Source: Clostridia bacterium
Lineage (GTDB): Bacteria > Bacillota > Clostridia > Oscillospirales > QAKW01
Assembly: GCA_017464525.1 (NCBI GenBank)
Contig: JAFTZM010000019.1
Span: 1 to 64,000, forward strand
Length of the DNA: 64,000 nucleotides
Direction of reading: 5' to 3'
Each line of letters begins with the position of its first letter. Position 1 is the first letter of the stretch. A program made the position numbers and the translations under genes. The notes beneath the pieces are model-generated. The model saw only the letters and a program-made list of their open reading frames with translations, was not told the DNA's origin and searched no databases. Shown piece by piece: positions 368 to 2,764 of the stretch.

Positions 368-880
368 TTATTCTATTTCTTTTAAAAATCCCGCTATTTC
401 TTCGGCTGTTTCATGGACAGTTTTATTTGTATTATCCAGATAAAATTGAAATTTACCCGCATTTTTCTTAAACCAATTATTATATTGAATCTGCCCGGCA
501 ATAAATTCATCACTTCCGCACATTCTTTCTGCAGGTCTGGCCTTCAGCCTTCTTATGATCTCCTCATCCGAACAAGTCATACCGATTAAAAAGGTCGATG
601 TAATACTCTGCGGAAGATGGATGGATTGATAGAAATCACCCGGATTCAGGCAGGTCGTAAAAAGCAGATCTTTATCTCCTGACATTTTTACAGCCTCTGC
701 CAAACAATCGTCGCTGAATTTGGCTTCATTTTCTGTTCCCGCATAATGCCACCAATTGATGCCCACTTCATCAGTATCGATACAAGCCCAACGATCTGAG
801 ATCCCACATTCATTCAATGCATTTTTGATCGTTGTTTTGCCAACGCCGCAGGCTGCACTTAACACTACCAATTTTTTCAT
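368..880 (-). CDS. P-loop nucleoside/nucleotide kinase-like protein
   Basis: A 170-residue cytosolic protein with a P-loop at residues 8-17 (SAACGVGKTT). Ala stands where the first Gly of GxxGxGKT normally is. A later RRLKARPAER segment resembles the arginine-bearing lid of the shikimate/gluconate/adenylylsulfate kinase-like group. By family knowledge it should transfer phosphate from ATP to a small molecule; the substrate cannot be read from the sequence. It starts 19 bases after the stop of the sigma-like/cyclophilin gene on the same strand, so the two are probably cotranscribed. Its ribosome binding site is weak. Confident of the P-loop fold, not of the reaction. Confidence 0.65.
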   Translation of the reverse strand: MKKLVVLSAACGVGKTTIKNALNECGISDRWACIDTDEVGINWWHYAGTENEAKFSDDCLAEAVKMSGDKDLLFTTCLNPGDFYQSIHLPQSITSTFLIGMTCSDEEIIRRLKARPAERMCGSDEFIAGQIQYNNWFKKNAGKFQFYLDNTNKTVHETAEEIAGFLKEIE

Positions 881-899: not shown

Positions 900-2177
900 T
901 TATGCCGTGCGAATGTTCACGGTTTCGATCACCGGCTGATCCGCGGCGGGGATGGTACCGTTACCATCGGTGGGCTGAGCGGTTTCGCAGATGGCATCCA
1001 CGATCTCCATCCCAGCAGTCACATAACCAAATACAGCATAGCTGCCATCCAGATGGGTGCTGTCCTCATGCACGATAAAAAACTGAGAACTGGCGCTGTT
1101 GTAATCATTGGAACGGGCCATAGAGATAGCACCCCGGGTGTGAGAAAGGTCATTCTCCACCCCGTTATCGGAAAACTCACCCAGAATATTCTGGCCGGAC
1201 CCACCGAAGCCGTCTCCCGCGGGATCACCGCCCTGCATCATGAAATTCTCTATAATGCGATGAAAGGTGAGTCCGTCATAGAAACCGCTTTCTGCCAGTT
1301 CCACAAAATTGGAAGCCGAAACCGGAGCCGATTTATGATCCAATTTCACCGTTACGGTGCCCTGATCCTTGATCACGATATCTGCATAATAGGTCAGGGT
1401 TTCATCCAGGGTGCTTGTGGTCTTCACCGAATCGGAGACCTTTGTATTGGCGGTGCTGCCGTCCCCGGCGGTGTAGGTGTTGCCTTTCGGAATAAAAATA
1501 ATGATCAGCGCCACAATTGCACACAAAAGCACTCCACCGGCCACCGCCAGAAAAGCGTGCTTCCTCTTTTTCTCGAAAGGAGCGGCAAGGCTGCTGATCA
1601 CCAACTCCACCTGCTCATCTACCTTGCGCGGAACCTCCACCATGCGTTCCGCCTTTATAAAGGCCTCTGTCATCCGGTCTACCTCGGCGGATTCTTCCGT
1701 TTGCAGAATCCGGAGAATATTGCGGTGCTCCGCCTCCAGCGCCTGATTGACGGTGCGGAGGTCAAAGTTAAAATAAGCGGTCATCCAGGCCGTGCCATAG
1801 CCGCCCACTGTGCGAAGCACAAAGATAAACCGCTGCAGGGCGGAAAACTGGGTGAGCACCTGCTCTGCATCGGCGGCAAAGCCTTCAAAATTCCCCTTGA
1901 TCAAAAAGTTGCTGTTGGGGGGCAGCTGAAGCTCCTTCGCCATCTTCCGCTTGCAATATTCGGCGGTTTTCCAAAGTACCTTTTGCGCAAACTCTTCTTC
2001 CGTTTCCGGCAGCTTGCGCAGAGTCTCGGTAAAGGCCCGGGCGGTCACATCGGCGGCGCGGCCGCTGTCCCGCAGCAGCTGCTTGGCTAAATAGTAGACC
2101 TTTTGTTTATGCTGATCGTAAAGGGTCTCCAGCGCCTTTCGCTGGCCCTTTGCGGCTTTTTTCATGATTTCGGACAT
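900..2177 (-). CDS. Sigma-factor-like domain fused to a membrane-anchored cyclophilin PPIase
   Basis: The 425 residues form three parts. Residues 1-160 resemble an ECF sigma factor: a region-2-like helical part (ALETLYDQHKQKVYYLAKQLL) and a region-4-like part near 108-158 (LQRFIFVLRTVGGYGTAWMT, then TVNQALEAEHRNILRIL). Residues 207-229 are a single membrane segment. Residues 262-424 are a complete cyclophilin domain with FHRIIENFMMQGGDP (307-319) and SASSQFFIVHED (361-372), which hold the usual Arg, Phe, Gln and Met active-site residues. With positive residues (KKRK) just before the membrane segment, the sigma-like part should be cytoplasmic and the isomerase outside. Cyclophilins speed proline cis/trans isomerisation. 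The start is chosen for the AAAGGGG motif 9 bases upstream. Whether the N-terminal domain still binds RNA polymerase or DNA is unknown. Confidence 0.85.
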   Translation of the reverse strand: MSEIMKKAAKGQRKALETLYDQHKQKVYYLAKQLLRDSGRAADVTARAFTETLRKLPETEEEFAQKVLWKTAEYCKRKMAKELQLPPNSNFLIKGNFEGFAADAEQVLTQFSALQRFIFVLRTVGGYGTAWMTAYFNFDLRTVNQALEAEHRNILRILQTEESAEVDRMTEAFIKAERMVEVPRKVDEQVELVISSLAAPFEKKRKHAFLAVAGGVLLCAIVALIIIFIPKGNTYTAGDGSTANTKVSDSVKTTSTLDETLTYYADIVIKDQGTVTVKLDHKSAPVSASNFVELAESGFYDGLTFHRIIENFMMQGGDPAGDGFGGSGQNILGEFSDNGVENDLSHTRGAISMARSNDYNSASSQFFIVHEDSTHLDGSYAVFGYVTAGMEIVDAICETAQPTDGNGTIPAADQPVIETVNIRTA

Positions 2178-2290
2178 ATTTATACACCCCTTTGACCTCT
2201 ATTATACTACAACTCTGTGAGTTTTGGATGATAAAAATATGAATACATCGTAAACAACTGCATATAATCCATCCAAGGGAGATGATTTCA

Positions 2291-2764
2291 ATGAAAAAAC
2301 GGCCTGTGCTGACCATTCTTTTAAGCATCGCCATTGCCGAAGGGGTGGGATTTCTTTCCGGCCTGCTGGCCGGCGACATCCGCACCGTCTACTACCAATT
2401 GAACCGACCTCCGCTGAGCCCGCCGGGGTGGGTATTTCCGGTGGTGTGGGGGATCCTTTACGCCTTGATGGGGATCGCCGCCGGGCTGATCTGGCTCAAT
2501 CGGGGAGACGAACGGAGCCGAGAGCAGGCGCTGATCTACTACAGCGTGCAGCTGGCTGTTAACTTTTCCTGGAGCATCGTGTTTTTCCGGTTCCAGTCCT
2601 TTTGGCTGGCGGTGATGATCATTCTGATCCTGGATGTGCTGGTATGGATCACACGCCGGCATTTCGACCGGCTGAGCCCCGCCGCCGGTTGGCTGTTGGT
2701 GCCCTACCTGGCCTGGCTCCTCTTTGCCACCTACCTGGCCATCGGGGTGTTTGTGCTGAACTGA
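2291..2764 (+). CDS. tspO: TspO/MBR family integral membrane protein
   Basis: A 157-residue, five-helix protein with hallmark tryptophan/proline-rich segments (RPPLSPPGWVFPVVWGILYA, NFSWSIVFF, LVPYLAWLLFATYL). The TspO family binds tetrapyrroles and other hydrophobic ligands in the membrane; its role in Clostridia is unsettled. An in-frame ATG exists 9 bases earlier, but AAGGGAG at 2275-2281 is correctly spaced only for the ATG at 2291. It is a single-gene unit, divergent from the sigma-like/cyclophilin gene and closed by its own terminator. The family call is secure. Confidence 0.92.
   Translation: MKKRPVLTILLSIAIAEGVGFLSGLLAGDIRTVYYQLNRPPLSPPGWVFPVVWGILYALMGIAAGLIWLNRGDERSREQALIYYSVQLAVNFSWSIVFFRFQSFWLAVMIILILDVLVWITRRHFDRLSPAAGWLLVPYLAWLLFATYLAIGVFVLN

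Follow-up and report, generated by a model that had tools for sequence, protein, structure and literature searches.

Architecture of the fusion protein

The window (the whole stretch of DNA analyzed, 64,000 nucleotides) contains a gene, at 900 to 2177 on the reverse strand, that joins a domain resembling an ECF sigma factor to a cyclophilin across a predicted membrane helix. This raises the question of whether such a protein relays the state of protein folding at the cell surface to transcription or has put a sigma fold to another use. An earlier note described sigma region 2- and 4-like segments, one membrane helix, and a complete cyclophilin within a single 425-residue protein, and this layout was confirmed by the open reading frame, profile searches, hydropathy, and homologues. 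The frame begins with ATG, homologues are collinear with it over the full length, and AAAGGGG at 2187 to 2193 (reverse strand) reads as the likely ribosome-binding site of the long form. One public gene call for the contig has the protein begin only at residue 179 (window 1641 to 1643; P0009), omitting the sigma-like part. Chance fusion or misassembly was ruled out by homologues on independent contigs. The gene and the window differ little in GC content (0.538 and 0.529, respectively). Two nearby frames resemble, by eye, a small nucleotide-kinase-type ATPase (368 to 880, reverse strand) and a TspO/MBR-type membrane protein (2282 to 2764, forward strand) and have no obvious tie to the fusion.

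All parts of the gene lie on the reverse strand. Profile matches and residue counts delimit a sigma2-like region (residues 1 to 80; 1938 to 2177) and a sigma4-like region (residues 104 to 160; 1698 to 1868), separated by a connector (residues 81 to 103; 1869 to 1937). Juxtamembrane helices, predicted by the model, follow at residues 161 to 206 (1560 to 1697), where the alignment reveals the family motif VPxxxDE...IAxPxEKKxKK, and hydropathy predicts a single membrane helix at residues 207 to 229 (1491 to 1559), with a hydrophobic core at about 211 to 229. A linker predicted to lie outside (residues 230 to 261; 1395 to 1490; pLDDT of <50 at 229 to 250) leads to the cyclophilin domain (residues 262 to 424; 906 to 1394), which is defined by PF00160 (1.8e-43, matching residues 265 to 405), PDB sequence matches to 2e-29, and fold matches. 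The stretch preceding the membrane helix is rich in lysine and arginine; we therefore infer that the sigma-like part is cytoplasmic and the cyclophilin extracellular.

PF00160 is present in 34/34 family members. In the active-site motif FHRxxxxFMxQGG, R307 and F312 are found in ≥90% of aligned proteins and Q315 in all 34, the motif aligns with that of PDB cyclophilins, and the modeled fold matches cyclophilins. By these features the fusion protein is a cyclophilin, and it is expected to be active as a prolyl isomerase.

Loss of contact residues in the sigma-like domain

The sigma ancestry that the earlier note had proposed for the N-terminal ∼165 residues was borne out at the level of the family. 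For the window protein alone, sigma region 2 matched at residues 19 to 59, under Pfam's cut-off, and several NCBIfam ECF sigma models matched residues ∼2 to 60 (best, 6.1e-7), every one under its cut-off. Family-level profiles and the predicted fold recovered the ECF sigma2 and sigma4 regions, which the model places in a closed arrangement.

Residues were compared across four sets of N-domains. The first comprised 34 fusions (alignment A1, i.e., the window protein and 33 of 52 others, the remaining 19, mostly near-copies, having been set aside by eye). The second comprised nine genomic rows, i.e., eight fusions and the split protein of genome G193 (L173 is a near-copy of P0113; L182, which encodes the P0110 protein, was omitted). 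The third consisted of 16 membrane-fused sigma factors of the same order, chosen by open-frame length from an order-wide match list (295 genomes), and the fourth consisted of 25 stand-alone ECFs, i.e., matches to our own profile or Sigma70_r2 in open frames of <260 amino acids.

Core-binding Q46 of the sigma2 motif DxxQE occurs in 0/34 fusions and 0/9 genomic rows, compared to 14/16 membrane-fused sigmas and 20/25 ECFs; the adjacent acidic residue 47 occurs in 1/34 and 1/9, compared to 13/16 and 23/25. Both −10 residues of the motif WLxxIAxN are missing from every fusion and genomic row (0/34 and 0/9 each), in contrast to W66 in 16/16 membrane-fused sigmas and 23/25 ECFs and N73 in 12/16 and 24/25. 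Most basic residues of the recognition helix are gone as well: R/K146 is found in 0/34 and 0/9 (versus 15/16 and 24/25), S145 in 1/34 and 0/9 (versus 12/16 and 24/25), and the mean net charge of the segment is −0.12 in the 34 fusions and −1.33 in the nine rows, compared to +3.5 in membrane-fused sigmas and +4.68 in ECFs. In Mycobacterium tuberculosis sigma-H, the contacts to the β′ coiled coil are made by conserved residues, and full activity requires W81, which stacks with the −10 element (PMC6411747); judged from the family motif, positions 46/47 and 66 would be the same sites.

Other features are retained or new. A41 is kept in all sets (34/34, 9/9, 16/16, and 25/25), R/K116 is kept in 33/34, 9/9, 16/16, and 25/25, and sigma4 L111 is kept in 23/34 fusions and 8/9 genomic rows; among the sigma-like charges, acidic 43 survives in 24/34 and 3/9 and R/K151 in 20/34 and 4/9. 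Newly conserved are an aromatic residue at position 117, in the helix of residues 113 to 123 (30/34 and 7/9, versus 1/16 membrane-fused sigmas and 0/25 ECFs), connector residues P86, N90, and F91 (≥90% of 34), and the premembrane VPxxxDE...IAxPxEKK stretch. This new conservation is weaker in the divergent genomic members (E60 in 4/9 and F63 in 5/9).

We conclude from these residues that the N-domain is a pseudo-sigma, of sigma ancestry but with the main core RNA polymerase and promoter contacts gone, and that by the residues examined the fusion protein is not an ECF sigma factor. The combination of lost contacts, a kept core, and new conserved positions suggests a new use and not decay. That the N-domain decayed recently is not favored, since 52 other proteins carry it in the same reading frame as the cyclophilin.

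Distribution and gene neighborhoods

Searches with the full protein (120 of 5,465 matches listed) and with residues 1 to 205 (11 listed) together yielded 127 different proteins, 55 of which matched the N-domain probe. One of these, P0009, represents the window gene in its shorter public call, and two, P0125 and P0126, do not have a full cyclophilin; there are thus at least 52 full-length fusions besides the window protein among the matches listed. P0125 ends before the cyclophilin is complete, the sequence of P0126 diverges ahead of the cyclophilin, and P0129 ends after the sigma-like part. P0128 (331 amino acids) consists of the N-domain, membrane helix, and an acidic tail with no cyclophilin, on a 1,344-base contig that is too short to judge. 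P0006, P0008, P0010, and P0011 each contain two cyclophilin signatures, and no other outside domain was seen on the pseudo-sigma among the sequences inspected.

Among whole genomes, a survey of 295 from the order recovered the fusion in that of the window, G176, and G144; one of 150 from a single family recovered it in G409, G340, and G343 (N-termini were inspected at 12 loci and in G193 and G024, a count that does not take in the long frames of G274, G153, and G413); and one of 391 from the class recovered it in G734 (seven loci inspected). There was no second carrier among the 16 genomes of G734's family and no full-length match in the other 11 genomes searched of the window's own family. 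In named genomes, a profile scan with alignment A3 found none and one with alignment A4 found four, namely, records of Candidatus Avimonas, an uncultured Clostridia bacterium, a Roseburia MAG, and a Lachnospiraceae MAG. Checked across Clostridia, the architecture thus occurs in scattered genomes of one class, and this patchy spread suggests loss or transfer.

The surroundings of the fusion were inspected in the window, in G176, G144, G193, G024, G409, G340, G343, and G734, and at L180, L182, and L183. No conserved partner or signaling gene and no NepR-type anti-sigma partner gene were seen in these neighborhoods. The only features to recur among the neighborhoods were a two-component system in L180 and L181 and a gene set shared by G193 and G024. 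The former is, by eye, a response regulator/histidine kinase-like pair (L180:2859-4753 and L181:186-2128) upstream of the fusion, directly so in L180; the latter comprises an acetyl-CoA-hydrolase-like gene, a cyclophilin, and a tadA-like gene (the first and last by eye). A scan returned seven promoter-like matches (1.6 expected) and three terminator-like matches (1.9 expected), and no match was attributable to the fusion gene. Within the fusion proteins, the sole candidate for an anti-sigma domain ahead of the membrane helix in a profile scan was Sigma_reg_N, in 3/34 (best E value, 0.042).

Origin of the fusion

In a first tree of 78 N-domains, 34 cyclophilin-linked rows formed one clade (96/100), the G193 row being incomplete. 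A second tree, which included the whole G193 protein, L180, and L183 and dropped nine near-copies or duplicates, placed 34 of 35 cyclophilin-linked N-domains in one clade (99/100). The exception, the G343 N-domain (L128:2607-3806), lies apart from this clade, on a long branch joined to another long one, and a single origin including it appears in 22% of bootstrap trees; G343 represents either a second origin or an artifact.

In G193, the N-domain and membrane helix form a separate protein, followed 33 bases on by a membrane cyclophilin gene and then the tadA-like gene. G024, from the same genus, has a cyclophilin frame (L002:1390-2088) whose opening 21 residues are similar to those at the N-domain's start and run straight on to the linker, the pattern expected had the domain and helix been lost by deletion. 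Fused and unfused forms are interspersed in the cyclophilin tree, with 11 changes, at least six of them forced. Since the cyclophilins fall into no single group, and given the G193 and G024 forms, the trees and sequences indicate that related surface cyclophilins have gained or lost the pseudo-sigma on more than one occasion.

Possible function

The best-fitting described case is PhyR of Alphaproteobacteria, which has a correct ECF fold with degenerated promoter and core regions and titrates an anti-sigma factor (PMC8103513; PMC4598750). The pseudo-sigma shares with the sigma-like domain of PhyR the ECF fold, degenerate core and promoter regions, and a closed sigma2-sigma4 arrangement, here predicted (PMC8103513; PMC4598750). 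It differs in that PhyR carries a receiver domain and has NepR as its partner, whereas here there are a membrane helix and a cyclophilin; a Pfam scan of the whole fusion protein listed the cyclophilin and no receiver domain. For lack of that domain, the fusion is not a PhyR, although it perhaps works like one.

On this analogy we tentatively favor a membrane-bound sigma mimic that works, like PhyR, with a cytoplasmic partner normally holding a real sigma factor, and the fit to PhyR is the reason for preferring this to a plain anchor. The pseudo-sigma would bind, inside the cell, a partner otherwise occupied by the real sigma, presumably an anti-sigma-type protein. Outside, the cyclophilin would be either bound or unbound to an unfolded or proline-exposing surface protein, and its state might alter the binding of partner and N-domain across the membrane. 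The full version, a transmembrane prolyl-isomerase receptor in which the cyclophilin senses unfolded surface protein and the pseudo-sigma captures the anti-sigma to free the real sigma, making it a PhyR counterpart outside Alphaproteobacteria, is speculative and, on present evidence, rather unlikely. Of the link between envelope folding and transcription suggested in the earlier note, a route by mimicry as in PhyR stands as a possibility, with no partner found in the neighborhoods inspected. The direct form, a tethered working sigma, is unlikely, since homologues have lost the DNA and core contacts, an outcome that the note had named as refuting, at the four main positions in 43/43 rows, with a few other acidic or basic residues surviving.

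Almost as likely as mimicry is that the sigma-like domain is a mere cytoplasmic anchor or docking element for a surface cyclophilin, a co-opted fold with no role in transcription. Related unfused cyclophilins are anchored otherwise, by lipoprotein-signal-like N termini or, in G003 (of the genus of G193 and G024), by a plain membrane helix. The G024 remnant, the mixing of forms in the cyclophilin tree, and the lack of a conserved signaling neighbor in the inspected neighborhoods point the same way. However, an anchor would hardly require ∼200 residues of folded cytoplasmic domain in which connector and aromatic positions are conserved, and a cyclophilin of G347 has a kinase domain at the same position. 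That 803-residue protein (L123:2111-4522) consists of a protein kinase (PF00069, 1e-30), a hydrophobic stretch, an acidic linker, a cyclophilin (PF00160, 3.7e-42), and a further C-terminal stretch, and, as a single example, it hints at a sensing role for the cyclophilin.

It is improbable that the sigma4-like half binds the RNA polymerase β flap, tethering or damping transcription at the membrane with no titration of an anti-sigma: retention of L111 and R/K116 would suit this, as hydrophobic sigma4 residues of sigma-H contact the flap-tip helix (PMC6411747), but the sigma2 glutamine expected at the β′ coiled coil is gone and aromatic 117 is new to its helix. Least probable is a working, very divergent sigma, held at the membrane and freed by regulated proteolysis once the cyclophilin senses stress; despite clear sigma ancestry and the existence in the same order of intact ECF domains that a membrane helix links to outside domains, the absence of Q46, W66, N73, and R/K146 from 43/43 rows, positions that intact membrane-fused sigmas largely keep, makes it unlikely.

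Other known systems resemble the fusion only in part. SigW and other ECF sigmas share its sequence and predicted fold but have the main core-binding and promoter-reading residues and not the predicted membrane helix. ECF41, ECF42, and ECF238 likewise carry a regulatory domain behind sigma4 but are described as ECFs inactive until ligand binds, and the available portion of PMC8103513 mentions no membrane-spanning cyclophilin extension for them. PpiA/PpiB-type bacterial cyclophilins have the same fold and active-site motif but no pseudo-sigma domain across a predicted membrane helix. A literature search (sigma plus cyclophilin, membrane-bound or fused sigmas, leucine-rich-repeat sigmas, and kinase plus cyclophilin), covering portions of works including PMC8103513, PMC7406223, PMC6372665, PMC6411747, and PMC4598750, returned no description of the fusion; ECF classification and evolution papers may yet describe a group with a membrane extension.

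In this layout, a dead sigma and a folding enzyme are predicted to face opposite sides of the membrane, the sigma the cytoplasm and the enzyme the exterior. If the protein signals, it would couple surface protein folding directly to transcription, bypassing any classical membrane anti-sigma protein, in a way open to testing; if not, it would be a clean example of a sigma fold recruited to another job.

Related, apparently tethered sigma-like proteins

The same order contains ECF sigma domains fused via a hydrophobic helix to large domains (L060:283-2055, L048:1426-3252, L055:1576-3186, and L072 to L079). In seven of eight such proteins scanned, both sigma regions were above Pfam's cut-off, and some carry leucine-rich repeats or Big_2; these are apparently membrane-tethered sigma factors. 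Together with the pseudo-sigma fusion, the intact helix-fused sigmas of the order open a little-studied class. Another degenerate sigma-like N-domain followed by a hydrophobic helix occurs in G734's family (L155:1456-3057, L156:139-1755, and L162:1411-3114). L155, the one of the three that was scanned, has a DUF5050 domain, and this type adjoins a gene resembling, by eye, cardiolipin synthase.
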